A stretch of DNA of 51,964 nt, taken from positions 1-51,964 of the forward strand of contig RPQS01000025.1 of assembly GCA_003818605.1 (NCBI GenBank). The letters run 5' to 3'. The DNA is from Candidatus Zhuqueibacterota bacterium (GTDB lineage: Bacteria; Electryoneota; RPQS01). This document shows positions 1,428-41,857 of the stretch, piece after piece. Under the pieces are notes generated by a model, which had not been told where the DNA came from, searched no databases, and worked only from the letters and a program-made list of their open reading frames with translations. Both the position numbers and the translations under genes were made by a program. Within the stretch, counting starts at the first letter, position 1, and each line of letters opens with the position of its first letter.

Positions 1428-1428
1428 A

Positions 1429-2265: not shown

Positions 2266-2270
2266 GATGA

Positions 2271-4041: not shown

Positions 4042-7000
4042 CTACCGTGCCGATGTCACAAGGTAGAACCGTTTCAAGTACGTGTCCGCCTCGTTCGTGA
4101 TAGTGCAGGTTGTTGCCGAAACGGTGGCGATAGGCGCTTCGATAAAGCTGGAGGGATCGTTGGATGCATACACATTGTAAGAAGTCGCGTTCGGAACCGC
4201 ACTCCAGCGGAGAATAACATCCGCACCCGAGACTTGGATGGAAAGATCCGTCACGGCATTCGGAACTCCCACAATCATGGTCACGGGAACCGTCACAACG
4301 GTTTCATCCGGATCATTCGACGTGATCGAGATCTGTCCGGTGTACGTGTCTGCGGCCAATCCGGTGGCGTCAAAGGTCACCGTTAGCGGTGTGGATCCCG
4401 ACGGATTTACCGTACCGCTGGTTGGCGACACTCGCAGCCACGGCTGAACCGCCGTAAAGCGGATTGCCAGATTCGACACGAGATATGCCGCATTGTATAC
4501 GACCTGCAGGCCGTCCGTTCCCGTAGCATTCTCGATGCCGATCGTTAGATTGTTCACCGTGCCCGAAACGCTCTGATATTGGAAGAAAATCTCGCCCGAA
4601 GAGTAGAGAATCGCTTCAAATGTGTACAGACCGGGGTAGGTTGTTCCGAAATGCGGTATGCTGTCCCACTGCACGATGAAGCGGCTGTTGGTGGCATCAT
4701 TATAATAATAAATGCCGGCACCGTTCTGCGGGCTTAAATCGTCCCAAAGTGGAGCCAACATGGCGTTCGGCAGCCGGCCGCTGGGGATTTCCCGATTGCC
4801 GTAATCGGTGGTGTCGCCGCTGAAATGGAGGATGCCGTTGGAACTGATTCGCGCCGCCGTATAGGTCGTGCCGTATAGGGGGAAGCCCCACGGCAGAGTT
4901 ACGCCAAAATGCTCGTCATCTCCGGTGGTATTCAGCCGCGTCCCGATTCCGGCAATTTCCACCCAATTGTATACCGGCCCGCCCGCTTCATTGCTGTCAT
5001 ACCAGCGATAGCCGAACGTATCCGGCCCGCCCTGATTGTCCAGCGTTCTCGATCCGTGCCTCGGATCCGCTTGATCTTTTGCCAAGATCAAATCAGGGTA
5101 CTCTTCCCGAATTGCCGCGAGCCGTGTGCTGTTCGTTGTAGCGGAGGCCGAGAAAATCAAATCCGCCTGTCCGATGTTGTCAAGAGCAAGTGTACGGGTT
5201 GTGGAAGCCTCCGGATCAAGGCCGACTTCAAACAACGCCGGATTAACGCTGATGTCCGGGTAAGGTATCGGGGCAATGGGCGGGAAGATGATGTAGTCCA
5301 GCCACGCGCAGTCGCTGCCGCTGCTGAGCGATCCGTCCTTCAGATAGCGCCAGAGGAAAGTATGATTTCCTGCCGTTACCGCGAATGCGGCTTGCGTCCA
5401 CGCAACGGTGCCCGACCATTGTGCCTGCTGTGCTCCGTCAATATAGAACCGCAGATAGTCGTAGCCGGATTCGGAAGAAACCTTGTAGTAAAACCGGATT
5501 GTATCTGCCGCTAAAATGGTAACCGTGACCGATAGATCGCTCGTGTCGCTGTGTGTGATGGTGCCGGATTTCGCGCAATAAACGCCTTCCTGCGGATCGG
5601 TGGAAGTGATGGTCCACGGGAGATTCCCGCCCGGTGTCCACGGGAAGCGCGTGAAGTTCCCTGTTTCGAAATCCTCCAACACCAAGCCGATAGCCAGCGA
5701 AAACGATCCGGTAGTCGCGTAGTTCGTACCGGTCATATCTACATGGAAAGGCGCGGCGTGTCCGATAGGAGCTTCAGTATCAATTGTAACGGCAAACGTC
5801 ACAACGTCCGTCGCGCCGGCAGCCAACGATGCCAAACTGCCGCTGTTGTCCGTGATGACAACATAGGGATCGGCGGAGGATAACAGCGCTGCGAGATTCA
5901 CGACCAGAGCGGAGCCATTGTTGGTCAAATTGACGTCCAGTGTCGCGCTTTCTCCGGGATCAAGCCGCCCATTGTTGTTTCCGGACGGATCGTGCACGGT
6001 GACCGTTCCCACGGTAATTTCTGGGGCATGGGCGGTAATATTGAATCCGTCCGTCCATTCGTTGCTCGCGTTATCGGTTGCCGTGACGACAACGGCGATC
6101 ACGTGTCCGTCGGGGACGTTGGTGGCTACAACCGCTTCGAAGCCGTTGGTGATAGTTGCGCTCTGTCCGGAGAGAATCGTACCGTAGCTTTCCGTTGCAT
6201 CGGTAAATGTCAGGTATGGATCCACTGTGGAAAGAGTCACGTTCACTCCGGCGGCGGATACCGTGCCGACATTTTCTTCCGTAAGAGTCAGGTCAAGGGT
6301 CTCACCGAAGTCGGCCAGCCCGTTGCCGTTGCCGCCCGCCGCATCATTAATGACTTCTGCGGACGTGACAACATACGGGCCGGAATTGGGGATGACCTGA
6401 ATCGAATCAATCACCGGAATGCGGCCTTGGCGCGTGATAACGATATGCGCGTAGCCAGGCGCGGTGATGGCGGCATAATTCAGTGTCAGCGAACCGCTCG
6501 TTCCCACTAAACCCGCGGCCAGCAGTTGACCGCCCGAACTGAAACCGACGTATGAATACGGATTCGCCGTAACCGTGAACGAGGTTTGTCCGATGAAAAT
6601 CGGATCCGGATAGCTGACGGTATTGGCCGTGGGAACTCCCAGATACGTCGTTAAAGAGGGATCGCCCATCAGCGAATAAATTTCCCAATAATAGTTTATG
6701 CGGCTGCTGTTCCCTTCCACGACGGCGATGTTGCCCGCCATAATGAAGCCGTATTGCGTCGTGTACCAATTCGGGAACGTTTCGCTGTGATCGTGGAACA
6801 TTCCATCGTATGCGCCGCGATGAGCTGCATCATACACCGGATTGACCGCCACGGCTTTGGCTCCCACGCCCCACCAATAGTCTTCATCCCAATACGAGTT
6901 GTTCGTTCCGCCGATGTAGCCGATGGCGCCTTTGTTTTCGGCTCGCAGTAGAGCTTCGGCGAAGCAGTTCGCCACGTCGAACTTGCTTGTCAGGCAGCAA

Positions 7001-8481
7001 TTCCCGACCATCGTGCCATATTTGTGCGCGTTGGTCATATTGGCCACATCCGATACCGAGAACGAAGGATCCGCCCAGCCGCTCGAACTGCCGTGCGCCG
7101 TATAATTCATATAGCCCCGGCCCTCGCTGGCATTCGCCAGAACCAGTGCATCCGAACTTCCCGATTCGGGATAGAGATACGTATTGGATGTCAGGCCGTG
7201 CGCCGTGTTGAAGTAATACGTCGTGCCGTAGTTGATCTGCCCGTTGCCGTAGGTCGGAGCGTTATCCGCATCCACACCGGCAATCATCACGCAGCGTCCC
7301 AGATAGCTGGGATCGGGCATTTCATAGCGTTCGTATTCCAGCGTCTTGTCAATCTGCGGCTGCAGTTCGTCCGTTGTGCGTGCCGAAAACCGACCGAAAT
7401 AAATTTCCGGCATGTAATCCGATCCGGCCAGCCGCACATAAGTCAAATCCGTATAGTGGCTGGAGACGCCGCTCCAGACCGGAATCTGAGCGGTATCGCC
7501 CACAAACAGCACAAAGCTCGGAGCCGGGTCTTCGGTTGTGCCCGCATCGTATAAGCCCTGCAAATATGCTTTAATCGAAGTTGCCGTGGAACCCACGGCG
7601 GGTTCGCCCTTATAGGCAACGATGACGTTGTAGCCCTGTTTTCTCTTCCAGTCTACGAACGGCGCGAGCTGCGCGGCAAACATCGAATGAGAGATAATCA
7701 CGTACTTGATCGGATAGCGCGTCAGGTCTTCATCAAGCGAAGAATCGCGCCGGTAGTTCAGTACGGATTGACTATAGATGGATTCGAAGTAGGGTGAATA
7801 CGTTTTTGTGTGCATGTCCCGCGTGGCAATGTAATCACCGCCGTTGAAATGCACGGCGATTTCGATATTGTTATACACAGCCAGAGTCTTTTGCTCGGGA
7901 TTGTACTTCACCGGTTCCACGGTAATCACAAACAAACGCAGACCGCGCATGATTCCCAATTCTTCCGCCGTCACGAGCGGATGGTCATCATAGGAGTTGC
8001 GCGAGTACGCGGTCGCTTTGTATTCGAATGGTACGTCTTCCGGTCTCTGGCTTTTCGACAGCGACGGCTGCGCCGGCATTAACGGATACTCAATCGAGTG
8101 ATCGGTTAATTTGATTTCGCTGCGATCAAACCGGGCGGCTTCCACGATAACCTCCGCACCCAGCGGTACGGCAATGATGCGCCGCTCGAGTGGCAAGGCC
8201 GGTTCGCCGATCCGATTGCTATACGCAAAACCGGGCACGCTGATCCGGCTGAAGGTGCCCATGCGGGTTTGCACGTTAAAACTTTCCAAACCGCTGAACC
8301 GGAACGACAAATCAATTCCGTCCTCGCGGTTGCTGACCAGCTTGAATCCTTCATCCACCGCTGCTGACCGGGTCATTCCATCAAGCGAGACCCACTTGGC
8401 ATCCGAAGCGGCTTGAACCATCGAAAGATTCAGTCCGGTCACGAAGCAGGTTAATAATACCAAGCGCAAAAAAGTTTTCAT
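4042..8481 (-). CDS. Secreted gingipain-like C25 family cysteine peptidase with multi-domain C-terminus (Ig-like repeats, nidogen-like domain, FnIII-like terminus)
   Basis: Start at 8481 with upstream GGAGG and signal peptide MKTFLRLVLLTCFVTGLNLSMVQA; C25 motifs FVLFVGDTAQIP, catalytic His in NYTAHGSSSGW and Cys in MVGNCCLTSKF; C-terminal Ig-like, 190-aa nidogen-like and FnIII-like modules. Track ORF start 8547 is upstream of the likely start. Confidence 0.9.
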   Translation of the reverse strand: MKTFLRLVLLTCFVTGLNLSMVQAASDAKWVSLDGMTRSAAVDEGFKLVSNREDGIDLSFRFSGLESFNVQTRMGTFSRISVPGFAYSNRIGEPALPLERRIIAVPLGAEVIVEAARFDRSEIKLTDHSIEYPLMPAQPSLSKSQRPEDVPFEYKATAYSRNSYDDHPLVTAEELGIMRGLRLFVITVEPVKYNPEQKTLAVYNNIEIAVHFNGGDYIATRDMHTKTYSPYFESIYSQSVLNYRRDSSLDEDLTRYPIKYVIISHSMFAAQLAPFVDWKRKQGYNVIVAYKGEPAVGSTATSIKAYLQGLYDAGTTEDPAPSFVLFVGDTAQIPVWSGVSSHYTDLTYVRLAGSDYMPEIYFGRFSARTTDELQPQIDKTLEYERYEMPDPSYLGRCVMIAGVDADNAPTYGNGQINYGTTYYFNTAHGLTSNTYLYPESGSSDALVLANASEGRGYMNYTAHGSSSGWADPSFSVSDVANMTNAHKYGTMVGNCCLTSKFDVANCFAEALLRAENKGAIGYIGGTNNSYWDEDYWWGVGAKAVAVNPVYDAAHRGAYDGMFHDHSETFPNWYTTQYGFIMAGNIAVVEGNSSRINYYWEIYSLMGDPSLTTYLGVPTANTVSYPDPIFIGQTSFTVTANPYSYVGFSSGGQLLAAGLVGTSGSLTLNYAAITAPGYAHIVITRQGRIPVIDSIQVIPNSGPYVVTSAEVINDAAGGNGNGLADFGETLDLTLTEENVGTVSAAGVNVTLSTVDPYLTFTDATESYGTILSGQSATITNGFEAVVATNVPDGHVIAVVVTATDNASNEWTDGFNITAHAPEITVGTVTVHDPSGNNNGRLDPGESATLDVNLTNNGSALVVNLAALLSSADPYVVITDNSGSLASLAAGATDVVTFAVTIDTEAPIGHAAPFHVDMTGTNYATTGSFSLAIGLVLEDFETGNFTRFPWTPGGNLPWTITSTDPQEGVYCAKSGTITHSDTSDLSVTVTILAADTIRFYYKVSSESGYDYLRFYIDGAQQAQWSGTVAWTQAAFAVTAGNHTFLWRYLKDGSLSSGSDCAWLDYIIFPPIAPIPYPDISVNPALFEVGLDPEASTTRTLALDNIGQADLIFSASATTNSTRLAAIREEYPDLILAKDQADPRHGSRTLDNQGGPDTFGYRWYDSNEAGGPVYNWVEIAGIGTRLNTTGDDEHFGVTLPWGFPLYGTTYTAARISSNGILHFSGDTTDYGNREIPSGRLPNAMLAPLWDDLSPQNGAGIYYYNDATNSRFIVQWDSIPHFGTTYPGLYTFEAILYSSGEIFFQYQSVSGTVNNLTIGIENATGTDGLQVVYNAAYLVSNLAIRFTAVQPWLRVSPTSGTVNPSGSTPLTVTFDATGLAADTYTGQISITSNDPDETVVTVPVTMIVGVPNAVTDLSIQVSGADVILRWSAVPNATSYNVYASNDPSSFIEAPIATVSATTCTITNEADTYLKRFYLVTSAR

Positions 8482-8588
8482 CCGACATTCCTCCGCGAAA
8501 ATACATATGTCTTCGGTCATCGCTTGAAGCAAATCCTGACTTTTCAAACCATGCGACTTCCGCCTGTCATCGCCATGTTATTAAAGAT

Positions 8589-8617
8589 ATTCTACGAACA
8601 AATCCGCCGAATAGCAA
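8589..8617 (-). promoter_or_regulatory. Putative sigma70-type promoter for C25 peptidase gene
   Basis: Minus strand TTGCTA - 17 nt - TAGAAT, about 110 bp upstream of start. Confidence 0.5.
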
Positions 8618-8895
8618 GAACTAATCGTCCGGTATGGGAAAATTGTATCAAAAACTGTCCAATCCCTGTCTGTCCCTATTCATTCGCCTTTTTAACCATT
8701 CTGCTCAGTATCAAACCACTTGTATTTAGGGAAATTCGCCGATTGGCACTCCCGAAAAATCGAGCAACTCTGACCCTTCGAGACAGAAAGTCGGAACTGA
8801 GTATAAAATTGGGCTGGTTGGAAAAAGACTGGTAAAATCGCCGTTTTCATATTATATTTCAGTGACACGCGTGATTGTGTTATGCGAGGAAAAAC

Positions 8896-11451
8896 ATGTA
8901 TTTCGAAAAATTGACGCATTGGGCGCTATTCTTGGCTCTCGCGTTTGTCGTCTCGACGGCTTTTGGGCAACAGCCTGTAGCCCGCAAGAACATGCTGAAT
9001 TCCGGACTTGCCGAAGTCCAAATGACATCGAAGCTCGATCTGCAGACGATAGATCGCATGGGCGGCAACATTGATTGGGTTCAAGGAAACGTGGCTCGGG
9101 TCTATTTACTCCCCGAAGATTTCGAACAACTGCGCGCCTCCGGATTCTCGTTGCAGTGGATTCCTGATGAAGGCAAACTGAGCTTGCAGGACCTGTGGGA
9201 GAAAACGCGGCATACCCGCGATCCGCTCGATGCCTATCATACAAATGACGAAATCCGTACGCAGTTTGCGCTATGGCAGGCGGCATATCCGACTCTCTTC
9301 AAATACGACTCTATCGGCATGTCCGTTTTAGGACGACCCCTTTTAGTCGCCAAGCTCTCGGATTATGTAACCACGGATGAACCGGAAATCGAAGTGAAGT
9401 ACGTGGCCAACATGCATGGCGATGAAACGGTGGGCAAGGAAAATTGTCTCCGGTTTATAGATACACTGCTCACCGGATACGGAATTGATCCCGAATTAAC
9501 TGAGCTGATGACCGATTACGAAATGTGGTTTTTGCCGCTGATGAATCCGGACGGCAACTACAGCTCATCGCGCTACAATGCCAACGGCTATGATTTGAAT
9601 CGTACGTTTCCGGACCGGTGCGACGATTCGGTTAATACGACTACGGGCCGCCCGATTGAAGTGGCCAATGTAATGAACTGGACGGCCAGCCGGAATTTCG
9701 TACTGTCGGCCAATTTCCATGGCGGGGCGTTGGTTGCCAACTACCCGTGGGACAACAACTGCACCGGTGGCGACGTTTATGCTCCGACTCAGGAAGACTG
9801 CTTGTTTGTCTATATAGCCAGGCGCTATTCCTACTACAACACGCCGATGTGGAACAACTCGGCGTTTCCGCCTTGTGGCATCACCCATGGCGCGGACTGG
9901 TACGAACTCAGCGGCGGCATGCAGGATTGGGATTATGTATGGATGGGTGATCGCGAACTGACCCTTGAAATCAGCAATACCAAGAATCCAGCGGCTTCCC
10001 AGCTTGAACAATTCTGGCGTGACAATCGTCAAAGCATGCGTTATTATCTCTTGGAAGCCAAGTACGGCGTGCGCGGAACCGTCACGGACGTGGTATCGGG
10101 GCTGCCCCTGCGGGCGAGCATATCCGTGAATTCCATTCCATATCTGACTTTTAGCAGTGCGCTGCACGGTGAATATTATCGCATGCTTCGGCCCGGAACC
10201 TATTCAATTTCCTTTTCGGTGCCGGGTTACGGATCACAAACTCATTCCGTCACGGTCGCGCCGAATTCCTATACGACGCTGAACGTTCAACTCGGATTAC
10301 CGCCGGATATTGCCGTCAGTCCCGATACGATCCGGACTACGGTGGGCCGTTGCAGTAATGGGAGTGCCTCCTATACTATAATCAATAACGGCGCCGGGCC
10401 GTTGACATGGTCGGCGGTGGAGGGCTATACCAATTACAGCGGATACGGGAGCGCCGTCGGCGGCGACTGGCGATTCATTGACAGCGATCAATCGGACGGA
10501 CCGGTTTATGCTTGGAAAGACATCAGCTCCGCGGGGACTCTGGTCAGCTTTAGTTCGGACGATCAGACTCTGGGGCCGTATTCCGTCGGATTTTCTTTCC
10601 CCTATTTCGGCCAAGCACATACGACATTCAGGATTTGCGGCAACGGATGGATTTCCTTCACGTCCACGTCCACGGCCTATGAGAACGGAATGCTGCCCTC
10701 TTCCGGTGCGCCGCTTAATATGCTGGCGGCATGGTGGGATGATTTGAGTCCGCAGCGTTCGGGAACGCAGGTCAGATATTGGTCGAACAACTCCGATACG
10801 CTGGTTGTGACATTCTCGAATGTGCAGAGTTACAGCGGCAGCGGATTGTATACATTCCAGTTCATTTTGCTCTCGTCGGGCAAGATTGTGTATCAATACA
10901 ATTCGATGGGAACTCTTCGCTTGAATTCTTCAACCATCGGTTTGCAGAACGCCGCGGGTACAAAGGGAATGGCTGTCATCAACAATCAAACGTACATCCA
11001 CGATGCGATGGCTATTGAATTCTGCCCGCATTCGATGATTACTCCGGCTCCGCTGGCAGGAACAGTCGCGCCCATGTCTTCGCAATCGTATGCTGTCAGC
11101 GTAAACACCTGCTGTGTGCCTTTGGGAACGATTGCCGGAATCCTCGCCATTTCATCCAACGATCCGGATTCTCCGACACTTCATGTTCCCGTTGTTATCA
11201 CGGTCGTGGATGCTCCGCCGGACCCGGTCACCGATCTGACGATTTATTCCGAAGGAACAAATGCGCTTCTAAAGTGGAATCCGGTTCCAACGGCATCCGG
11301 CTATCTGGTTTATCGCATGAGCGGAGCCGAACAAGATTACTCCACTGGAGAACTGCTCACGCTCGTACCCATTACCGCCACTTCATACACTGATACGGTT
11401 ACGGCGGCGGCGGCAGGCGTTCGTTTCTATCAGGTTGTTTCCGTCCGCTGA
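8896..11451 (+). CDS. Secreted M14 family zinc carboxypeptidase with nidogen-like domain, Ig-like halves and FnIII-like terminus
   Basis: ATG at 8896 after GAGGA; signal peptide MYFEKLTHWALFLALAFVVSTAFG; M14 motifs NMHGDETVGKE (HxxE), SANFHGG, catalytic Glu in RELTLEIS; carboxypeptidase regulatory-like domain follows. Confidence 0.92.
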   Translation: MYFEKLTHWALFLALAFVVSTAFGQQPVARKNMLNSGLAEVQMTSKLDLQTIDRMGGNIDWVQGNVARVYLLPEDFEQLRASGFSLQWIPDEGKLSLQDLWEKTRHTRDPLDAYHTNDEIRTQFALWQAAYPTLFKYDSIGMSVLGRPLLVAKLSDYVTTDEPEIEVKYVANMHGDETVGKENCLRFIDTLLTGYGIDPELTELMTDYEMWFLPLMNPDGNYSSSRYNANGYDLNRTFPDRCDDSVNTTTGRPIEVANVMNWTASRNFVLSANFHGGALVANYPWDNNCTGGDVYAPTQEDCLFVYIARRYSYYNTPMWNNSAFPPCGITHGADWYELSGGMQDWDYVWMGDRELTLEISNTKNPAASQLEQFWRDNRQSMRYYLLEAKYGVRGTVTDVVSGLPLRASISVNSIPYLTFSSALHGEYYRMLRPGTYSISFSVPGYGSQTHSVTVAPNSYTTLNVQLGLPPDIAVSPDTIRTTVGRCSNGSASYTIINNGAGPLTWSAVEGYTNYSGYGSAVGGDWRFIDSDQSDGPVYAWKDISSAGTLVSFSSDDQTLGPYSVGFSFPYFGQAHTTFRICGNGWISFTSTSTAYENGMLPSSGAPLNMLAAWWDDLSPQRSGTQVRYWSNNSDTLVVTFSNVQSYSGSGLYTFQFILLSSGKIVYQYNSMGTLRLNSSTIGLQNAAGTKGMAVINNQTYIHDAMAIEFCPHSMITPAPLAGTVAPMSSQSYAVSVNTCCVPLGTIAGILAISSNDPDSPTLHVPVVITVVDAPPDPVTDLTIYSEGTNALLKWNPVPTASGYLVYRMSGAEQDYSTGELLTLVPITATSYTDTVTAAAAGVRFYQVVSVR

Positions 11452-11466
11452 ATCTTCATGCAGGTA

Positions 11467-11502
11467 AACAAAAAAGCCCGTTGCAGTGTGGGCTTTTTTG
11501 TT
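11467..11502. terminator. Bidirectional rho-independent terminator between convergent M14 and flavodiiron genes
   Basis: Perfect 13-bp inverted repeat AACAAAAAAGCCC-gttgcagtgt-GGGCTTTTTTGTT with A/T tracts on both sides. Confidence 0.92.
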
Positions 11503-11525
11503 GTCCGAAATTTCGTAAGCCTGTG

Positions 11526-12737: not shown

Positions 12738-12778
12738 AATCGGCCTCCCTTGTTATTGTAGATCAATGGGTCGGCTTT

Positions 12779-12807
12779 AAGATACAAACAACCGTTTGGA
12801 AAGTCAA
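12779..12807 (-). promoter_or_regulatory. Putative sigma70-type promoter for flavodiiron gene
   Basis: Minus strand TTGACT - 17 nt - TATCTT, upstream of start at 12737. Confidence 0.6.
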
Positions 12808-12825
12808 GTTGCGTTTACGGCTGAA

Positions 12826-12855
12826 TAAAAAGCGCGGAGTCAGAAGACTCCGCGC
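12826..12855 (-). terminator. Rho-independent terminator downstream of second C25 gene
   Basis: 9-bp perfect stem GCGCGGAGT-cagaag-ACTCCGCGC followed by TTTTT on minus strand. Confidence 0.82.
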
Positions 12856-12891
12856 CGCATTTCTGTCGGGGATCAATGATGCCAAAGCGGC

Positions 12892-15800
12892 CTATTCCGT
12901 AGCCGATTGCACCTGATAGAATTGCCGGATTCCGGCCGTGTCCGTTCGCGCCACGTTCATGAGCGTATCGGATGTGCTTTGGAAAAACGTGTATGGGCCT
13001 TCAATAGCCGTGGAGCAATAGACTTTATACAGCGGGACTCCCAAATTTGTCCAGGACAAACGCACGTAGTCGCCCTCGACTTGCGATACGACCTGTGGCG
13101 GAACCAGCGTGAATCCGTGCGCGCGAATCAGGCGATTACCGCTGCGTGCGGACGAGGCGGCGGATTCTTCGCTGTACCAAACGCTGTCGCAGGGATCGTA
13201 CACGTATGACCTTCCCGCCGCCGTACTGCTGGTATCGTGCAAAAACGCCTCATAATGACCGGATGCCGGATTCGACACGGCGACATAGAACGATCCGGTC
13301 AGCGCCAACGGATCTCCATCTTCATCGTATGTGGCTGCGTAAGTCCAATTGTCCGGACTGCGCGGCATCCCGCCAACTTCATTGCCGATACTCCCGACTT
13401 GTTTGCTGAGCAGAAGACTGCCCGGCAGATTATCCGGCCCGTCGGCATTTAAGATTTGCACTTCAAGAAGCGAATGCGTCGTATCAGGGTGTTCCGCCGA
13501 TATGCCGATGTTCACTCCGTAAAGAAGAAACGGCACGCCGGTGGGATCGAATTTCACGGCCCAGCGATAATCCCTGTTTTCCGACCAGTGGGCGGCCTCC
13601 GCCGTGCCGTCGTCATAGACCAATTCATTGACGCAGCCCGGTCTCGCGTCGAAAGTAAAAGTATCGGTTTGGGCGACAGCCGCTTCCGCATCTTGTACGC
13701 GGATGAAATAGACATACGCGTCTTCCGCGAAGGGGCCGACGGTGGCGGCGTATTCATCCGGATTTGCCGTGGCGATGAGATCCGCCGAATCGGCGGCTCC
13801 GCCCAGGGGCCAGTAAATCATCCGTACTGTAAATCCCGAAGCGTCATCCGTTGCGATTGCGGTTACCGTGAACGACTCCAACATCTGGTCATGCAGAGGA
13901 TCATGGAGAACTGCTGGCGGATCATTGGGCATGACAACGGTGAATGGACCGTCAGAAACATCGCTCGCCGCGGGATAACTCAGGCTCGAAACGCGGATCC
14001 GCGCGTTTCCCGAAGTCGGCGGTGCTGCGTACCATTCAAAGATGCCGTCATTACCCGTGTTGGGAGCTAACGTATCCCATAAGCCCGCCGGATAATCCCG
14101 GTTGAGTTCGATGCAGACGTCGCCGGTCACGTTTTGCGATGTCCATTGAATGTAATACGGATTGTCAATGATCCACGTTTCGCCGCCGTTCGGTACGGCA
14201 ACCGTAATCGTCCGCAAAGCAATCGTGAAATTCGCCGCGGAGGTATCGCCGACACCGGTTTGCACTGTGCCCGCGATACGCACGCGCGCGGTGGTGGATA
14301 CGTCCCCCGCCACCGTCCACGGATGCGATCCGTCATTCGGCGTGCTGGCGATAATCGTTTCCCACGAAGCTTCGGGATAGCTGCGATTGATTTCGATTTT
14401 GATGTTTTCCGTCAGATTTTCCGACGTCCACTTGATGCTGTCCAAATCTTCCACATACCAGATTTCACCGCCGTTGGGAGTAGTCAAATACAAGTGCGGA
14501 ACTGCGGAAACGACCGGAATGTTCGCCGTATAGGTGACCTTGTTGAAAGCCGTCGCGGCTAATTTTAAAGTCTGACCGGCGAGCGGTGTTCCACTGATCG
14601 TGATGGTTGCAAGGCCGCTTCCGTTTGTGTAAGCCGCCCCGTAGATCGTGTCGTTTCTCGTTAAAGCGCATAATGCGCCGGATACGCCGGTGACCGTTAC
14701 ATTAAACGTGGTTTGACCCTGCGCGAACTGCGAAGCATGACTGACCGACATAGCAGTCGGAGTTTTCGTGCGTACTTGAACGGAAGGGTCGCCGAAAATA
14801 TGCCATGTGTTGAACATAGCGGCGCCCGCTGTTCCATTCAGATCAATCATCTTGCACGAAGCGTTGAAGCAGATTCCGCCAAAGGTGGTTTTACTCTGTG
14901 CGCAGACAATATCCGTGGCTTCATCCTGGGCGTCCATCGGGGGCAGCCAGGATTGATTGACCGACGCCATATACGTTGCCAGCGCGCCGATCGGCTGGCC
15001 GGAGCGCACGGAGCGAAGCCAGTATTCCGCGAAGCACGTTGTATTGTGGAACTGACCATTGACGCAGGCAACACTGAAAATGAACGGCAGCAGATTGTCA
15101 TTGGTCAGGTTGGTGATATTCGTATTGTTGAAGCCGGTCGTTGACCAGGAAGTGGTGCTGCCGTGGCCTATATAATTCACGAATCCGCGTCCGGCATTCA
15201 ACGCCGTGCTCACCTGCGCGGCCGTCGCGCCCGGATCGTAGATCTGATCTACCGATGTATATCCATATCCTAAAAGATCCGTGCGGATATAGCCCATATG
15301 CTCGTAATCAATCTCGCCGCCGTTGTGGCCGATGCCATCCCCTTCGGCGGAGGCAATTCCCGTTGCGCGCTGGCACCAGCTTGCCCCGGTGGTTGCGTCG
15401 CGTTCGTATTCGATGCTGCGTTCGACTTGAGTATTCACATGTGCAATGAGCTGAGCGGAAAAACGTCCGATAAAAATGTCGGGATAGTTATCGGCGCCCG
15501 CGACCTTCGCGTATTTCGGATCGCATGCGCTGTCCGAAGACATAATGGTCGCTACCTGCGCGGCATCTCCGACTAACAGCGCGTATGCGAGATTTCCGCT
15601 CGTGCTCGTATAGAAATTCTGGATGTAGTTCTTGATGGACGTGGAATTGTTCCCGATGGTCGAGACGTTGACCATCGTGGTCTTGATTCCCTTCTGAATC
15701 TTCCAACTGTAGAACGGCTGCATGGCCGTGCGGAAGGAATCGGCGGTGATAATGAGCATCTCGCCCTGTTCATCCACGGCCGTATAGCGGGAATCTTTTT

Positions 15801-16494
15801 CTTGAAGAGTTCCGTAGTTCAGAAAATGCCGTTGATAGAGCAGATTAAAAGCGGGATCCACTTTCGTGAACGGCGCGCGGCGCTCGAATACGTTTTTCCG
15901 TCCCTGTCCCGAAGATTCTACGGCAACGGTGACGGACGTGTAGACGCGCAGCGTTTGCGTGACGGGCATATATTGAAAAGCGTAAACTTCGATCACGGTT
16001 CCGCGCAGATCGCGCAAAATGTACGGCTCGCGCAAGGCGACGGTCTGACCGGGATACCAACGTTGACTTTCGTAGACCGAACCAAACGAATACGGAACAG
16101 TTGCGGGATCAATATTGCGGGACAGATTGCCTTTCGAGGGGGCAATCGGCATGGATGGATAATCCGTAAACTGCGATGCGACAATCTTGATCTCCATTTC
16201 CGCATCATCCGGAATAATAATACTCCGGCAGATGCGCGGCAGATCGGGTTCTCCGGCATTCAAAAAATGCGCTTCGCGTCCGCAATTCACCGTATAGTAA
16301 TTCTGGCCGCTGATTTCCACGGCATCACGCGTGAATGCGTTCACGTCGAACCGCACGACGGTCCGCGAACCACTCGACTCGAGTACGTTGACTGATACAT
16401 CCTGAGCGGCGGAATTCAGTTCTACGCGCTCGGCAGCCCAACCCCATGCAGGCAGTGCAAGCAACATGACGAATAGAATCCAAACATGCTTCAT
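12892..16494 (-). CDS. Secreted gingipain-like C25 family cysteine peptidase with tandem PNGGE-W repeats and FnIII-like terminus
   Basis: Signal peptide MKHVWILFVMLLALPAWGWA; C25 motifs YALLVGDAAQVA, NYIGHGSTTSW (His), FIFSVACVNGQF (Cys); SD GAGGAAA upstream of ATG. Confidence 0.9.
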   Translation of the reverse strand: MKHVWILFVMLLALPAWGWAAERVELNSAAQDVSVNVLESSGSRTVVRFDVNAFTRDAVEISGQNYYTVNCGREAHFLNAGEPDLPRICRSIIIPDDAEMEIKIVASQFTDYPSMPIAPSKGNLSRNIDPATVPYSFGSVYESQRWYPGQTVALREPYILRDLRGTVIEVYAFQYMPVTQTLRVYTSVTVAVESSGQGRKNVFERRAPFTKVDPAFNLLYQRHFLNYGTLQEKDSRYTAVDEQGEMLIITADSFRTAMQPFYSWKIQKGIKTTMVNVSTIGNNSTSIKNYIQNFYTSTSGNLAYALLVGDAAQVATIMSSDSACDPKYAKVAGADNYPDIFIGRFSAQLIAHVNTQVERSIEYERDATTGASWCQRATGIASAEGDGIGHNGGEIDYEHMGYIRTDLLGYGYTSVDQIYDPGATAAQVSTALNAGRGFVNYIGHGSTTSWSTTGFNNTNITNLTNDNLLPFIFSVACVNGQFHNTTCFAEYWLRSVRSGQPIGALATYMASVNQSWLPPMDAQDEATDIVCAQSKTTFGGICFNASCKMIDLNGTAGAAMFNTWHIFGDPSVQVRTKTPTAMSVSHASQFAQGQTTFNVTVTGVSGALCALTRNDTIYGAAYTNGSGLATITISGTPLAGQTLKLAATAFNKVTYTANIPVVSAVPHLYLTTPNGGEIWYVEDLDSIKWTSENLTENIKIEINRSYPEASWETIIASTPNDGSHPWTVAGDVSTTARVRIAGTVQTGVGDTSAANFTIALRTITVAVPNGGETWIIDNPYYIQWTSQNVTGDVCIELNRDYPAGLWDTLAPNTGNDGIFEWYAAPPTSGNARIRVSSLSYPAASDVSDGPFTVVMPNDPPAVLHDPLHDQMLESFTVTAIATDDASGFTVRMIYWPLGGAADSADLIATANPDEYAATVGPFAEDAYVYFIRVQDAEAAVAQTDTFTFDARPGCVNELVYDDGTAEAAHWSENRDYRWAVKFDPTGVPFLLYGVNIGISAEHPDTTHSLLEVQILNADGPDNLPGSLLLSKQVGSIGNEVGGMPRSPDNWTYAATYDEDGDPLALTGSFYVAVSNPASGHYEAFLHDTSSTAAGRSYVYDPCDSVWYSEESAASSARSGNRLIRAHGFTLVPPQVVSQVEGDYVRLSWTNLGVPLYKVYCSTAIEGPYTFFQSTSDTLMNVARTDTAGIRQFYQVQSATE

Positions 16495-16511
16495 GCGTCA
16501 TTTCCTCATAC

Positions 16512-16529
16512 TGTGCCGGTTTCGGCACA
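16512..16529 (-). repeat. 7-bp inverted repeat (TGTGCCG-gttt-CGGCACA) in the 5' leader of the second C25 gene
   Basis: Perfect stem 18 nt upstream of the start codon, just upstream of the Shine-Dalgarno. Confidence 0.5.
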
Positions 16530-16641
16530 AAGTGTTGTCAGTAATCCTGACCCGATGTTAACTCAGGATGCCGCGCAACGAGTTCAGTACAAAAATTTAA
16601 CCAATTTACGACCTGTTTACAAGTGAAAACAGAGGTCTTAT

Positions 16642-16684
16642 AAAAAAACCGAAACGGGAAACCCTCTTCGTTTCACGCTTCGGT
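16642..16684 (-). terminator. Probable rho-independent terminator downstream of orphan secreted protein gene
   Basis: Minus strand CCGAAGCG...CGTTTCGG (one G-U) followed by TTTTTTT. Confidence 0.65.
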
Positions 16685-16757
16685 ATATTGTATAATCTGT
16701 TTTTATAGATAATTAGCTGTCGGTGCGGGGAGGCACTATTCCGGCGATGATATTATC

Positions 16758-18164
16758 TTACTCCGGGGTTGCTGTTACATAAAAGAAATGTATACCGGTG
16801 TTTGCCCGAAGGTCGAAGGTATGGTTATTCACTGGAGTCTGCCCGATGTGAGTGTATTCGCCTTCGTACGCTTCGGCTCCATAGATATGATATGTTACCG
16901 CACCGGCCGCCGCTTCCCAGCGGAGCCGCACGATATTCTGTTGGAGGATAAATGTACAGGTCAGATTTGTCACAGAGTCGCAAAGAACTGCCGCACGGCA
17001 GACATTTATCGTATTACCGTTGTGCATGAGTATTCTGTCCGCGACGCCGGGATATTTCAATACATTGAATGTTGATCCCCACATGCGATTTGTTTGCCCT
17101 AACTGCATTCCCGTCTCTGCATCAAATACGCGGAATAGACCGTTATACCATACTAATATGCGTTCGTTTCCGCTGGTATCTACTTTTGCTGTCCAAAGAT
17201 TTTCATTAGCCGTAGCCATTTCCGGATTCGACCAGAGCACTTCGTAGGTGTAGTGATCGAAGGCTGTCCCTTCCGGCGTAATTAAACGCTTCACACCGTT
17301 TCTGTCCATTTGTGGAACCGCATAGCCTCTCAGGCAGGGATGAGAATCGGCACAAAATGGATAGGCGGGCTGTCCCGGTTGTCCGATGTCCACAGTGGTC
17401 ATTTGAGAGCGAAAAACGTCATCGCATATCGGTTCATATCCCGAGCAGAGGAGACGATAATATCCGGAGACAACAAACTGCAGTGTGCGATAGTCTGAAA
17501 ACGGGCGTATATAATAACTGTCGCTAAACCCCGTATGTGTAAAGTATGGACAGTTTAACCCCTCGAAAGTCGTCCCTGTCATATTTTCTGAATAGCCGTT
17601 TTCCAGTGAGCTGTCCCATTCATGAATCCTCTTGCTCCACATTAAAATATCGTTCTTGTGGGGGGGAGGGGGCCAGACCGCCAGATCGCCAATATAGGCA
17701 TACATGGCACCATGACTACGTTCCTCCGAAACTCCTATTATGCGTGTGTGGATGAATGGCTCTGCCCAGGTATTCGCCTGTAGATCAACAGTGACGACGT
17801 AAAGATTCTGTTTGGGGAACGCTTGGACATCCGGGTTGTAGAAAAACGATCCTTTATATGTGATAACAACACCCAAATCCATTTCGCCCGGCCCCGTTTT
17901 CATCAGGCATAATTTGCACATACCCGAAGCGACTGAATCAGGAATGGCAAGATACCGCGGGGCTTGACCATGTTCCGGGACATAGCAAAGCGAATCCCCT
18001 CTCACATAGGCATACCCGTATGTGCGAGCATTAGTCCATCGTTGAAAATCGCAGTAATATCCCGGAATCGAAATGCTGCAATCCAATACCATTGTGTATT
18101 CGGCGAAAGCCGGATACCGGCACAGCACGAATATAATGATATTGCAGTATATGAATTTACGCAT
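16758..18164 (-). CDS. Secreted protein of unknown function with FnIII-like C-terminal module
   Basis: Internal ATG at 18164: MRKFIYCNIIIFVLCRYPAFAEYTMVLDCSISIPGYYCDFQRWTN..., signal peptide; the track's N-terminal extension overlaps the methyltransferase gene and is unlikely. Confidence 0.8.
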   Translation of the reverse strand: MRKFIYCNIIIFVLCRYPAFAEYTMVLDCSISIPGYYCDFQRWTNARTYGYAYVRGDSLCYVPEHGQAPRYLAIPDSVASGMCKLCLMKTGPGEMDLGVVITYKGSFFYNPDVQAFPKQNLYVVTVDLQANTWAEPFIHTRIIGVSEERSHGAMYAYIGDLAVWPPPPHKNDILMWSKRIHEWDSSLENGYSENMTGTTFEGLNCPYFTHTGFSDSYYIRPFSDYRTLQFVVSGYYRLLCSGYEPICDDVFRSQMTTVDIGQPGQPAYPFCADSHPCLRGYAVPQMDRNGVKRLITPEGTAFDHYTYEVLWSNPEMATANENLWTAKVDTSGNERILVWYNGLFRVFDAETGMQLGQTNRMWGSTFNVLKYPGVADRILMHNGNTINVCRAAVLCDSVTNLTCTFILQQNIVRLRWEAAAGAVTYHIYGAEAYEGEYTHIGQTPVNNHTFDLRANTGIHFFYVTATPE

Positions 18165-18188
18165 TGTGCATAATCCGATGTTATACGC

Positions 18189-18217
18189 AATATATTGAAC
18201 GGTTGGCCGGTTGTCAA
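18189..18217 (-). promoter_or_regulatory. Sigma70-type promoter for orphan secreted protein gene
   Basis: Minus strand TTGACA - 17 nt (accggccaaccgttcaa) - TATATT, 25 nt upstream of ATG at 18164. Confidence 0.75.
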
Positions 18218-18235
18218 TAGATTCCAATAAAATAC

Positions 18236-19045
18236 TTATAATTTCTGATGTGCCGCCAATGAAAACAGCAGCGGCAAGCGGGGGATGCCGGCGGGCAGTA
18301 TCCAGCGGCCGTCCGCTTGCTGGGTCATATTCGGAAATTGCGGATAGCACGAATACGGATATTCGTTGAATTCCCCGATCTCCAATCCGGCTTTCTTCAG
18401 CGCGTGAAAAATATCCGCAATCGTCCATGCCCAATAATTTTCTCCATGCGTCGGAACGAACGATGGATCGGCGTAATCCGGTCCGGGCGGTATCACGACT
18501 TCGGCGGCGTTGCTGAAGTAATCGTAAGCCAGTTCGAATTTGTCCGTATTTTCGCGAAACATGAGAGCCAGCGGATGAATCTCCGCAATGAAAAATAGAC
18601 CGCCCGGCTTGAGAAAATGCGCCACGATGCGCGCCCATTTCTCCAAATCACACAGCCACGTAATCACGCCGTACGATGTGAATACCACATCGAACTTCTC
18701 GGTCAAGTGCTGATCCAGTTCCAAGACGTCGCAGCAGATAAATTGGCAGCGGTCGGCAAGTCTGGCTTGCTGCGCGAGATCGCGCGCCTGCTCAATTGAG
18801 GCTTCGGAAAAATCTACGCCGACAACCTGCGCACCCAGCCGCGCCCAGCTTAGAGAATCCATTCCGAAATGGCATTGCAGATGGAGCAGCGATTTGCCGT
18901 TCACATCGCCCACTCCGTCCAGTTCAATCTCGAATAAAGTGTTTCGTCCGGCCAAAAATCCCGGCACGTCGTAAAATTCGCTGCGCGCATGGACCGGCGT
19001 TATTTCATTCCAGCGCCGACGGTTAATTTCATGTTGTTCGATCAT
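18236..19045 (-). CDS. Class I SAM-dependent methyltransferase
   Basis: Motif I-like LLHLQCHFGMDSLSWARLGAQVVGVDFSEASIEQAR; DVVFTSYGVITWLCDLEKWARIVAHFLKPGGLFFIAEIHP. Confidence 0.88.
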   Translation of the reverse strand: MIEQHEINRRRWNEITPVHARSEFYDVPGFLAGRNTLFEIELDGVGDVNGKSLLHLQCHFGMDSLSWARLGAQVVGVDFSEASIEQARDLAQQARLADRCQFICCDVLELDQHLTEKFDVVFTSYGVITWLCDLEKWARIVAHFLKPGGLFFIAEIHPLALMFRENTDKFELAYDYFSNAAEVVIPPGPDYADPSFVPTHGENYWAWTIADIFHALKKAGLEIGEFNEYPYSCYPQFPNMTQQADGRWILPAGIPRLPLLFSLAAHQKL

Positions 19046-19064
19046 GATGGTATTCCCGTTACGG

Positions 19065-19092
19065 ACAGGGGCGCGTATTACCGCGCCCCTGT
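19065..19092. terminator. Strong GC hairpin between S8 peptidase and methyltransferase genes (possible terminator or processing hairpin)
   Basis: 11-bp perfect stem ACAGGGGCGCG / CGCGCCCCTGT, but no poly-U tract on either strand. Confidence 0.45.
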
Positions 19093-19116
19093 TTCAATTC
19101 GGATTGACGGAATAGA

Positions 19117-20997: not shown

Positions 20998-21101
20998 TGG
21001 GGTCTCCATTATCACAGTTGATGTCGAGTGTATCTTCTTCGATTTGAAATCGTCGGCGGCCTGCTCAAAATAACAGCAGACCGAATCACAATCAAAACAT
21101 T

Positions 21102-21130
21102 AAGCTACAGAGTATTATCATCATTGTCAA
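21102..21130 (-). promoter_or_regulatory. Putative sigma70-type promoter for S8 peptidase gene
   Basis: Minus strand TTGACA - 17 nt - TAGCTT upstream of 20997. Confidence 0.5.
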
Positions 21131-21308
21131 GTTTGCGAATTTTCTTATTTTTAGAGATAATCTTCTCAACCCTCCCGTCCGATTGAATTCGTATCACGAT
21201 AAATTACAAAATAATCCCTTCGGGAAACCTCTGAGACAGTTATGCGTATAGAGGATAAGCAAGTCTATTAACCATGGAATGGCTTAAGTATCTAATTTCA
21301 GGAAATCC

Positions 21309-23612: not shown

Positions 23613-23658
23613 TCCTATACACAGATGAGAATTTAGCCCTATCCGGGTTTCTATCGTT

Positions 23659-23702
23659 TATGCGTGGATCAGCCTCTATGGGTTGACCCGCGCATTTTTG
23701 TT
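23659..23702 (+). terminator. Probable rho-independent terminator of TonB receptor gene
   Basis: ATGCGTGGATCA...TGACCCGCGCAT imperfect stem (one G-U, one mismatch) followed by TTTTTG. Confidence 0.6.
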
Positions 23703-23809
23703 TCATTATCCCGTTATCTTCTTCAAACTAAACATTTATCACATAATAGACGATAATAATAGATAGGACTCCAACGAGAAGGTTTTTTGCAAGTTTATAG
23801 GAATTTCTT

Positions 23810-23838
23810 GACTTGCCTGTCTGCCCGATGTATATTTT
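23810..23838 (+). promoter_or_regulatory. Sigma70-type promoter for 23878 operon
   Basis: TTGACT - 17 nt (tgcctgtctgcccgatg) - TATATT, about 40 bp upstream of ATG. Confidence 0.75.
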
Positions 23839-23877
23839 CCAAGATAGGTGTATTCTACCTTTTGAGGAGATTCCTGA

Positions 23878-24294
23878 ATGAAGAGGCTTGCCGTTTCTAC
23901 TGTGATGATTCTGTGCTGGTGTTCTCTGCTTGCCGCTCCGAGCCCTGTGCCTTCCGGAGTTTCCGCGCTCACTTATCCGGAACGGATTCACCTGCTTGAG
24001 GAGGAAACTCAGGCACAAATGACAGTGCTTTTCCAACAAGTTGCTGCCGATCCGGCTCAACGCGAGTCAATCGAAAGGCAAATCATTAAACTGAAGAATC
24101 AAGCCGAAATACACCGTTTGGAAATTCTGCTCGAATGGGCTGAAGCGGAGGGAAACCAAAATAAGGCTGCGGAAATACGGAAAGCCCTCGACCAATGGCG
24201 GACTCCCGTCGTGCCGCCCAAGCAATCACCCGTTCCACGTGATGCTCCGAATGCAACCGGCATTGTTCCCGAATCCAAAGATTCTTCGCGGTGA
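23878..24294 (+). CDS. Small secreted/periplasmic helical protein of unknown function
   Basis: 138 aa; signal peptide MKRLAVSTVMILCWCSLLAAP; predicted helical E/Q-rich core; GAGGA SD; start of an apparent operon. Confidence 0.75.
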   Translation: MKRLAVSTVMILCWCSLLAAPSPVPSGVSALTYPERIHLLEEETQAQMTVLFQQVAADPAQRESIERQIIKLKNQAEIHRLEILLEWAEAEGNQNKAAEIRKALDQWRTPVVPPKQSPVPRDAPNATGIVPESKDSSR

Positions 24295-24297
24295 TCC

Positions 24298-27200
24298 TTG
24301 CGAAAACTGCTGATCATATTCCCTCTACTTGGACTGCTGCTTTACGCAGGATTCGCGGCAAGCGATGAAGCGGCGGATGCCGTCTCCGTGCAGGGAGTTC
24401 TTCTCGAAACTCCGCTTCCGCAAGCAGCCGCAGATTATCGCGTGCCAGTGAATCGCTCCAAGGAAAACCTTCCGCCTCTCTTTTTCCCGCCGCACGCAGG
24501 AACGCTAAAACCGCGCCCGATCACTCCGAAAGATTTCTATCTGAATTTGGCGGACGTATCCAATCCGCACGGCTTGATCGTAAAATTTTCCGAAGAAGCG
24601 ATGATTCGCTGGCGCGACGGCAAGCCGTATTCTAAGACCGGTGCGGATGTCGCAGCTGTCTTAGAGTTTCTTGCCCGGTACCCGGACATTAAAATGGAGC
24701 GGGATGATCCGCTGCAGCCCGAGGAACTTTTCGATTACTGGGAAGCTAACGGCGAAAAAAACACGGGACAGGATCTGGCCAACCTGAATAATTTCTATCA
24801 ATTTTACATTCCGCAGAATCCGAAACCACTCGATATCGTCCGCGAAGTTCTCACTTGGGATATTACAGAAACGGCTTTCTATCTTCCCCAATGGCAGTTG
24901 GCTTGTACGGATGATCCTCCCGCCACTTTAAATTGGGAAGCGGATCAGCCTTACCTTGATCCCGCACCGCTGGGAATTAATGCGGAGTATTCGTGGAACT
25001 ATCATCCGACTCTGGGTCGGGGACGAGCGGATTATTGGTGCATTGACGTGGAAATGGACTGGTCCGAAAACCACGAAGATTTCCCGCAGGCTTTTCAGGT
25101 TTTAGGCGGCGGGGATGCGGGCGGCGCCGCTGATCATGGCGATGCCGTGATGGGAATCGTCGCGGCCTGCAATAACGGCTTCGGCATTACCGGAATCAGT
25201 TCGAACGTCACGCCCAAAGCGATTTCGTGGCCCACACGGTCGGGGATTACTCATCAGGACAAATGGATTTCTGCATTCAATCTCGCCGCGGCTTATCTAT
25301 TGCCCGGCGAATCTTACCTGATTGAGATCCACTACTATGGCCCCGATCCGGGTTTTGGCTGCGATTCCGTCTGCGGAAATTGTTCGCAATTCCGCTTCAT
25401 TCCCGTGGAATACTGGGACAATGTTTTTACGGCGATTCAGACTCATACCGCCAACGGATTTATCGTCTACGAAGCGGCGGGCAACGGCCAAATGGATCTG
25501 AATAATCCCGTTTACGGAAATCGCTTCCAGCGTTCATTCCGTAACTCGCAGGCGATTTTAGTCGGCGCGGCATTGCCGGAAACGCGCGAAGCCGAATGCT
25601 GGTCTAATTTCGGCTCCCGAGTGGATCTGCAAGGCTGGGGACGCGATATTTTCACGCTCGGTTACGGCAATCTTTGGCAAGGCACAGCGGATCCCGACCG
25701 CAGTCAGTGGTATACGTCTTCTTTCGGAGGAACGTCGGGAGCCACGCCGATTGCCGCCGGAGCGGGGAATTTGCTGCAAGGAATTTCGCAGGGGAAATTC
25801 GGCATGACTCTTTCACCGGATCAGGTGCGCGATTATTTGTCTGCCACCGGAACGGCTTGGACGGGATCCCGCGATGTTGGCGAACGCCCCGATTTAGCGC
25901 AAGCCATCAATTATATCGAACCCGACGTCACATCCTATCATCGTGCCGGTTGGGACAATCCTGTTGTTCCGCGCGCTGCCATGGATGCCGGCTGGGACGA
26001 CTGCCATGTCACTCCGTATTTATACGGCAATGGCAACACCTACTTCAACGTGATCGGCATAAATTCGGGTCGTTCCCCCGCGGCCGATTGCACGTCCGTC
26101 GGAGTCTATAGCGAACTCTGCGTGGATAGCGATGGTATCTATGGACTGTCCTGGACACCGCGCATTGCGCCGTTGCAGCAGATGGGCGGAATCAATCTCC
26201 CCGCCGCCGTAATTCGCGGCGGCCGCCATACCTTGGGCTGGCTGCTCGATCCTTACAACGCCTTTAATGAATTTTCGGAGAGCAACAATTCATTTTTTAC
26301 GCAGTACGTATGGTCGCCGATTTCGATAGCGAATGATAATCCGATAGAACGTATTGCACCGCCGCTAAAAACTTGGGGCAGCCCCGTTTATTACAATGGA
26401 GATGGTTTTCATGCTCATGGCGGTTGGTGGCTGGGCGTCGCGGTGATGCCGCAATTAGGTAATGATGTGGATCTCTATACGTTCAACACATCCTATTCCA
26501 GCACAACCGGTTTCGACACGTGGGAAAAGTACAGCATGCGCGGCACAGGTTTCCCTGATTTGATTATGGTTAACGGCAACATTCAAGGCTATAATCCCAC
26601 CCGCTATTTTCAAGCCGTGCGATATTCGGACACATCGAACCAATCCTACCATGTCGAAGCCGATACCAGCAAGCCCGCTTATGGAGTGCCTTGCAGCATG
26701 ATTGGCACGCTGACGAATCCGGAAATATTCGATATGTACGAGCTATATCTGGTTTCCGGGCAGCAGTACTTTATTGGTATCACGGATGTCGCGGCGGCGT
26801 TGGATCTTTCCTTGTTGATCTTCGATCCGGCAAGCTCTGTGGAATCTTATTGGGATTGCCGGTGGCTGGCCAATGCGCACGGAGCGGGCGGCAATGAAGT
26901 TGTTATGGTGGATGCCGATATATCCGGTTATTATGCCGCCGTGGTGATGAAAACCGGTTCCGGGAATTATAGCACGGAAGGTTCCTTCACTTTTTCGGTC
27001 GAGAATCCGGGACTGTGCAATCTGGTACCGGGCTTAAATCGGGAGGGTTGGGATGCCCCCGTCGTCATTCGCAATGATGGCGGCGCAACTGCGGATGATT
27101 GCCGCTTTCCGGCAGCCATTCAAGGTAACACGGATAATTTCATCAGTGGAACTTGGTTTAACAATAGCATGATGCCATTGGATATGACGTTTGCCAATCG

Positions 27201-28362
27201 GGTCTATGTGGACAACGAAGCCGTAACGGACTTTTTTCACGGCGGCTCGTTGAACCCGTTCTCATTCGGCCAGGAACTCAATGTTCCTATCGGGCCGATT
27301 CGCGGCGGGCGGCATACATTGACTCTTGCCGTGGATGCCGATAACGATGTTGCCGAAACAAACGAAACGGACAACACCTACTCCGCCCAACATGTCTGGA
27401 GTCCGCTGACGCTCGAATCCGGAGTGCCTGTCAATCGCTCCGCACCTCCTGCGCGCGGAAGCGGTGTCTATCCCAATGGCGACGGCTTCGCGTTTTCACC
27501 TTTTCCCGAACAAGGCAGCGCCGTTTGTCTTTTGGCGGAATCGTCAACATCGGATTACGATCTGTATCTTTATTCCGATTATGCGGGAACGGATTCCGGA
27601 TTCTCTTTCCTGATCGAAAACTCGATCCATGCTTCCGGATCGTCCGACTACGTGTTTGTTCCGTGGCGCTTGTCAGGTACATATTCGTCGTATTACCCGG
27701 CAATTATAAACTACAACGGTTCGAACCTGTCGTTTCGCGTGGAAGCACGGCAGGCGGAAGGCCGCTTTGAAACCACTCACTTGTGGGCTGCCGAAGACAG
27801 CCTGCCGCCGGAAAACCTGTTGCATATTTATGAATTTCTGCTTAGCGGCGGCGTCCGTTATGTGTTTGAATGCGGCATCCTTGCCGGAAATGCGGACCTC
27901 GAAATACGTCTGCATCCTGATTCGGCGGAAGCCACCGCAAGATTCGATGCCGTCGCTGTATCCGATGCGGGCGGCCCGGGTGAAGATGAAGAATTTATGT
28001 TCACTCCGCCGCTGACGGATTATTATGCTCTCATTATAAACAAAATCAATTCTGCATCGCTGAACGAGTTTAGCCGCTATCAATTGCGCATCGGACCGGA
28101 TAGTCCGCTGCCGGTGAATGACCTGCGCGCGCTGAAAGCGGATTCATCCGATGATATCCGTTTGACATGGACGCACGTTCAGCAAAGCATATTCGGCCTT
28201 CCCTTGTTGAATCGTCTCTATGTGATTTATCGCAGCACGACTCCCCAGTTTACTCCCACTCCCGCCGAATACATCGGCCAAACAACTGACAGTACGTTTA
28301 CGGATCCCGTCAGTTCATCCATTCCCAGATATTTTTACTGCGTCACGGTTCGCAACGATTAA
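24298..28362 (+). CDS. Secreted S8 family serine peptidase with two large CARDB-containing repeats and FnIII-like terminus
   Basis: TTG start: (M)RKLLIIFPLLGLLLYAGFAAS; peptidase motifs YWCIDVEMDW, DHGDAVMGIVAACNN, YEAAGNGQM, SFGGTSGATPIAAGAGN; two copies of GGRHTL-(x)-D-x-x-N-x-x-x-E-x-x-E-x-(D/N)N CARDB signature. Confidence 0.85.
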   Translation: MRKLLIIFPLLGLLLYAGFAASDEAADAVSVQGVLLETPLPQAAADYRVPVNRSKENLPPLFFPPHAGTLKPRPITPKDFYLNLADVSNPHGLIVKFSEEAMIRWRDGKPYSKTGADVAAVLEFLARYPDIKMERDDPLQPEELFDYWEANGEKNTGQDLANLNNFYQFYIPQNPKPLDIVREVLTWDITETAFYLPQWQLACTDDPPATLNWEADQPYLDPAPLGINAEYSWNYHPTLGRGRADYWCIDVEMDWSENHEDFPQAFQVLGGGDAGGAADHGDAVMGIVAACNNGFGITGISSNVTPKAISWPTRSGITHQDKWISAFNLAAAYLLPGESYLIEIHYYGPDPGFGCDSVCGNCSQFRFIPVEYWDNVFTAIQTHTANGFIVYEAAGNGQMDLNNPVYGNRFQRSFRNSQAILVGAALPETREAECWSNFGSRVDLQGWGRDIFTLGYGNLWQGTADPDRSQWYTSSFGGTSGATPIAAGAGNLLQGISQGKFGMTLSPDQVRDYLSATGTAWTGSRDVGERPDLAQAINYIEPDVTSYHRAGWDNPVVPRAAMDAGWDDCHVTPYLYGNGNTYFNVIGINSGRSPAADCTSVGVYSELCVDSDGIYGLSWTPRIAPLQQMGGINLPAAVIRGGRHTLGWLLDPYNAFNEFSESNNSFFTQYVWSPISIANDNPIERIAPPLKTWGSPVYYNGDGFHAHGGWWLGVAVMPQLGNDVDLYTFNTSYSSTTGFDTWEKYSMRGTGFPDLIMVNGNIQGYNPTRYFQAVRYSDTSNQSYHVEADTSKPAYGVPCSMIGTLTNPEIFDMYELYLVSGQQYFIGITDVAAALDLSLLIFDPASSVESYWDCRWLANAHGAGGNEVVMVDADISGYYAAVVMKTGSGNYSTEGSFTFSVENPGLCNLVPGLNREGWDAPVVIRNDGGATADDCRFPAAIQGNTDNFISGTWFNNSMMPLDMTFANRVYVDNEAVTDFFHGGSLNPFSFGQELNVPIGPIRGGRHTLTLAVDADNDVAETNETDNTYSAQHVWSPLTLESGVPVNRSAPPARGSGVYPNGDGFAFSPFPEQGSAVCLLAESSTSDYDLYLYSDYAGTDSGFSFLIENSIHASGSSDYVFVPWRLSGTYSSYYPAIINYNGSNLSFRVEARQAEGRFETTHLWAAEDSLPPENLLHIYEFLLSGGVRYVFECGILAGNADLEIRLHPDSAEATARFDAVAVSDAGGPGEDEEFMFTPPLTDYYALIINKINSASLNEFSRYQLRIGPDSPLPVNDLRALKADSSDDIRLTWTHVQQSIFGLPLLNRLYVIYRSTTPQFTPTPAEYIGQTTDSTFTDPVSSSIPRYFYCVTVRND

Positions 28363-41756: not shown

Positions 41757-41857
41757 GATTCGCTTCTCCGCTGGTGGCTCGTTTCGAGGGTAAAGTTGCG
41801 CTAAGCAGTGGCGTTTTGCGGCGGTGTTCCGTATATTTCTTCTGCGGATTCCCCGCC

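Follow-up and report, generated by a model that had tools for sequence, protein, structure and literature searches.

The window (the whole stretch of DNA analysed, 51,964 nucleotides) encodes five secreted proteins whose last residues had been read as one shared FnIII-like module. The module is present in all five (Table 1), and each protein stops 3–5 residues beyond its FYxV strand. The listed 626-residue reading frame of the orphan protein (16758–18638) overlaps a methyltransferase gene (18236–19045); since a signal peptide, MRKFIYCNIIIFVLC, lies near 18164 on the minus strand, the true start was placed there and not at 18638. Two other window genes had been described as ending in canonical T9SS tails. 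This description stood for the S8 peptidase gene at 38715, whose tail passes the model cut-off (Table 1). The tail of the gene at 49211 (VPNPY...SGIYLF) resembles it in style only, and no type-A model matched it at E 0.1 despite that style. A PorV/PorQ-family protein, flanked by two large secreted proteins, did not reach the equivalog cut-offs for PorV and PorQ. At 648–3879, going by the open reading frames only, genes for a small subunit, an FAD/NAD subunit, a cyclic-nucleotide-binding-like protein and an iron-sulfur subunit stand in an order resembling that of a NiFe hydrogenase cluster of the cytoplasmic sulfhydrogenase type. A search for RNA families across the window found none.

Table 1. 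Positions of the terminal modules and T9SS-related features in the window
Feature	Position	Strand	Remarks
Terminal FnIII-minus-G module, C25 peptidase (C25a)	4042..4266	-	Gene 4042-8547; signal peptide start near 8481
Terminal FnIII-minus-G module, M14 carboxypeptidase	11215..11451	+	Gene 8875-11451; AlphaFold2 model made
Terminal FnIII-minus-G module, second C25 peptidase (C25b)	12892..13107	-	Gene 12892-16494
Terminal FnIII-minus-G module, orphan secreted protein	16758..16985	-	Signal peptide start near 18164
Terminal FnIII-minus-G module, S8 peptidase	28102..28362	+	Gene 24298-28362
Type-A T9SS tail (YPNPFNP...KVALVR), S8 peptidase 38715-41864	38715..38955	-	TIGR04183 24.5 bits, cut-off 23
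PorV/PorQ-family outer-membrane protein, T9SS shuttle/attachment relative	48089..49174	-	NF033709 195.6 bits, cut-off 90

The by-eye alignment from which the module had been proposed was fragile on its own, because pairwise similarity (phmmer) was strong only between the C25a and M14 modules (E about 1e-13). It was moderate to weak for the C25b and orphan modules and weakest for the S8 module, which was not significant alone. The alignment held once a profile was applied. When a profile of the five window C-termini (A1) was run against the source genome (G000; 3.2 Mb, 253 contigs), 48 matches were obtained up to E = 1; about 34 further matches were significant and mostly C-terminal. The genome has about 35 carriers, beside at least 150 matches to type-A tails. 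Matches were translated to the stop codon to place the module relative to the protein end. About 25 proteins end 0–8 residues after strand F (FYxVxA), 7 have an extra tail of 19–50 residues beyond it, and 2 have the module directly behind the signal peptide. The weak remaining matches are ordinary internal FnIII domains, several of them in proteins ending in a type-A tail. At one locus (L080; contig C120, 16596-16751, minus strand) an in-frame TAA lies within the module, possibly marking a pseudogene or a sequencing error. Wherever the 5′ end is complete, the carrier starts with a strongly hydrophobic, signal-peptide-like segment, as judged by hydropathy and not by SignalP. The carriers comprise C25, S8, M14, M1, GH57, endonuclease/exonuclease, trypsin-like and PETase-like proteins, and several proteins have no known domain. 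They cover the enzyme repertoire typical of type-A-tail cargo.

Profile and structure comparisons identified the module as an FnIII homologue. Against the PDB, a profile of 28 members (A2) matched the solved FnIII 3mpc (E 5.5e-16), spanning residues 14–78 of its 103, and also the FnIII of CtXyl5A. The best Foldseek matches of the module model were likewise FnIII domains, with that of Pel3/PelI among the structural matches. Alignment to canonical bacterial FnIII by hhalign reached 98.7%, with the strand G columns unaligned. Solved and canonical FnIII continue for another 15–25 residues that form strand G, whereas the module does not. In the AlphaFold2 prediction of the M14 module (pLDDT 86.7) six strands were seen, with F as the last (residue 77 of 78), while the predicted structure of a matched canonical FnIII family had seven, including G (pLDDT 97.8). 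The module therefore shows FnIII homology in sequence and fold but has six strands in place of the seven (A-B-C-C′-E-F-G) that define FnIII. We conclude that, as modelled, it is an FnIII domain ending after strand F, with strand G absent. The missing strand is the key point that the sequence-only reading overlooked.

The C-terminal position of the module goes far beyond chance. In a near-closed, 7-contig genome of another genus that took no part in the profile (G029), 50 matches fell in 45 proteins. Of these proteins, 30 end no more than 8 residues beyond strand F, where random placement would predict 0.7 (P about 4e-46). Ten of the 45 have a tail of 15–51 residues, tails being called visually from strand F when the profile matched only in part, and five have the module elsewhere; three of these five, including a protein of 2875 residues that holds six internal copies, have a type-A tail at their end. 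Consistently, the best match in each of 14 other genomes, from the order of the source genome or from families f6–f8, was terminal and strand-less (ending without strand G), with or without a tail. Matches are few in families f3–f5, where 8 of 13 loci were terminal and strand-less. Internal hits lacking C-terminal bias had been named as evidence against a sorting role; the matches in this lineage are overwhelmingly C-terminal. A chance alignment was ruled out by the further matches in the source genome and by the placement in G029.

Could the module be an ordinary FnIII stalk that happens to come last, its strand G lost neutrally as nothing follows? This alternative, which the sequence-only reading had itself raised, is correct as to FnIII identity, and secreted bacterial enzymes often contain FnIII stalks. 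However, stalk FnIII domains are complete and placed between other domains, and for this reason we regard the alternative as improbable. Truncation at the same strand recurs in dozens of unrelated proteins from several phyla, while complete internal FnIII domains occur in the same genomes, including those in proteins ending in type-A tails, which keep strand G. Even within a single protein (contig C119 of the source genome), an internal FnIII with strand G (SDASNLVTVDV) precedes a terminal FnIII ending at F. Neutral loss also fits poorly with the 30 terminal positions where 0.7 were expected and with the exchange with export tails described below.

In a tailed sub-class (loci L084, L089, L125 and L128; source-genome contigs C66, C82, C126, C84, C181 and C98), strand F is followed by a disordered-looking, Ala/Pro/Lys/Arg-rich tail of 13–58 residues. 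The 26 tails examined had a mean length of 27 residues; a basic residue was found among the last five in 25 of them and a final K or R in 20, and type-A tails also end in K or R. At L111 (G012:C222), two consecutive open frames, a tandem pair, both end strand-less (FYRIVKSWG and FYRIQKTW), in a family that otherwise uses the module little.

Four carriers depart from the C-terminal position (L059:860-2839(-), L069:2-1924(-), L250 and L153), with the module directly behind the signal peptide in three and internal in one, so that the end position is not absolute. In two of the four, the module precedes a PGA_cap or formylglycine-enzyme-like domain. These carriers fit a module that binds a surface or polymer, its free edge docking on a surface partner or on another copy while export proceeds by another route. 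Lack of a strand is a typical docking trait, as in the donor-strand complementation of pilins, and some carriers have lectin-like, LTD and hydrolase domains. We consider such a binding role plausible but on the unlikely side; alone, it would leave unexplained the strict end position, the exchange with T9SS tails and the restriction to SprA-positive genomes in our sample.

The distribution of the module was compared with that of SprA, the T9SS translocon. Across the 39 genomes of the phylum, matches per genome numbered 35–84 in the order of the source genome, 14–38 in families f6–f8 and 1–9 in f3–f5. Type-A tails were abundant throughout (their counts are lower bounds), and SprA scored over the cut-off in 35 of the 39, the source genome included. 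Outside the phylum, the 16 genomes with the most matches were sampled, eight with SprA over the cut-off and eight with no SprA or weak fragments only. The strand-less terminal form was found in six of the eight clearly SprA-positive genomes (G233, G118, G178, G088, G230 and G186); of 52 matches sampled from these six, 35 end ≤8 residues after strand F, 16 have 13–58-residue tails and one is non-terminal. The remaining two SprA-positive genomes, G189 and G143, have ordinary FnIII only. None of the eight genomes without clear SprA had the strand-less form, and the domains matched there retain strand G (typically GESxxSNxxSATP). The association between SprA and the strand-less form gave a Fisher P of 0.007 by genome and 0.02 by family, in a small, match-selected sample with kinship not removed. 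Occurrence in genomes lacking any outer-membrane secretion system had been named as evidence against a sorting role; the sampled genomes that lack both SprA and type-A tails show only G-retaining FnIII.

Within individual enzyme families, the module and the type-A tail replace one another. All 11 M14 orthologues in the order of the source genome (52–60% identical) end in the module, whereas of nine distant homologues from families f4–f7 with the 3′ end present, eight end in a type-A tail and one in neither. In a tree of the M14 catalytic domain the module-ended sequences form one side of a branch, which indicates a single exchange, in either direction. A second exchange, independent of M14, is given by two subtilases of the source genome that share 39.6% identity over some 800 residues, one (on contig C82) ending in the module and the other (C130) in a type-A tail. 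These exchanges support an equivalence of module and tail.

The module is nevertheless no type-A tail in disguise, a candidate excluded on two grounds. None of the 28 module members matched TIGR04183 or any other model of T9SS tails (types A, B and C) in NCBIfam and Pfam at E ≤ 1, so the module belongs to none of these types by any model. Moreover, hhalign of the module against type-A tails of the same genome gave 1%, that is, no profile similarity. A lysine lies within the last 13 residues in 43% of modules compared with 99% of type-A tails. A recurrent or dedicated exporter gene beside the carriers was also looked for; no recurrent neighbour family was found, and an adjoining dedicated exporter was rejected. 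If the module is an export tag, a shared machine would accordingly be expected, as no recurrent shuttle gene accompanies the carriers.

One such machine might be the T2SS, which exports folded proteins. The FnIII of the pectate lyases Pel3/PelI, found among the structural matches above, carries T2SS determinants and aids export across the outer membrane by this route (PMC7949064), and the module could be a recognition domain of the same kind. We think this quite improbable: the Pel3/PelI domain is N-terminal and seven-stranded, unlike the module, and the module follows SprA in our sample and exchanges with T9SS tails.

The reading we favour, tentatively and at close to even probability, is that the strand-G-less FnIII serves as a C-terminal sorting or anchoring domain in T9SS bacteria, an alternative to the type-A tail. 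If so, it is probably served by the T9SS, and it is probably a new, undescribed tag for export from the cell or fixation to it; in the literature searched, from which subscription journals were mostly absent, no report was found of an export signal made of an incomplete FnIII. The second sorting or anchoring signal suggested by the sequence-only reading gained from the C-terminal placement, the signal peptides and the tail exchange, and lost from the four non-terminal carriers and the lack of an exporter gene nearby. In the proteins concerned, module and type-A tail occupy one and the same position. Against a sorting domain stand the absence of precisely the last strand, where the type-A export motif sits, the lack of type-A similarity and of a conserved lysine, the four non-terminal carriers, the absence of the module from G189 and G143, and its low use in families f3–f5.

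Mechanistically, the carrier would pass through Sec, and the module would fold in the periplasm and be recognised by the translocon of the T9SS or by a carrier protein. The docking site would likely be the free edge of the C′-C-F sheet, the vacant place of strand G, which corresponds to strand β7 in the type-A tail. A strand of a carrier protein or surface receptor could fill this edge. As no cleavable region follows it, the module may stay attached to the mature protein and anchor it. With less confidence, as one possibility, we propose that it constitutes an additional class of sorting domain for the T9SS in several non-Bacteroidota phyla, its open edge completed by a strand of the translocon, a carrier or a surface anchor, so that recognition would occur by strand addition and not through the type-A C-terminal motif. 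Should the module be a sorting or anchoring domain, present tail models would miss a sizeable share of what several mostly uncultured phyla secrete, and the module would provide a means to predict surface enzymes in unculturable lineages. The T9SS, or a neighbouring system, would then read a structurally distinct tag, and the sandwich, being incomplete, would point to a mechanism open to testing, namely recognition through completion of the missing strand.

Among known domains, FnIII (PF00041; 3mpc, CtXyl5A) shares its fold with the module and is clearly homologous to it as far as strand F, but it is usually internal and has strand G, whereas the module is terminal and lacks it; Pfam fn3 matched just 4 of the 28 members, weakly. 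Among known sorting signals, type-B (TIGR04131) and type-C (ChiA-like) tails, neither of which matches the module, show that the T9SS takes several tail families (PMC10202324, PMC12618676). Linkage to PorP/SprF shuttle genes is frequent among type-B genes, whereas the carriers have no recurrent linked family. The type-A tail (TIGR04183, PF18962) is bound inside SprA by PorV loops (PMC10994853), and the last of its seven strands bears an essential C-terminal motif (PMC11285876); this export motif and the conserved terminal lysine are both absent from the module. In other respects the type-A tail is close to it, being also C-terminal, about 70–80 residues long and a two-sheet beta sandwich, borne by proteins with signal peptides in the same genomes and enzyme families, and its 3+4 arrangement (PMC11285876) has a strand order compatible with that of the module.
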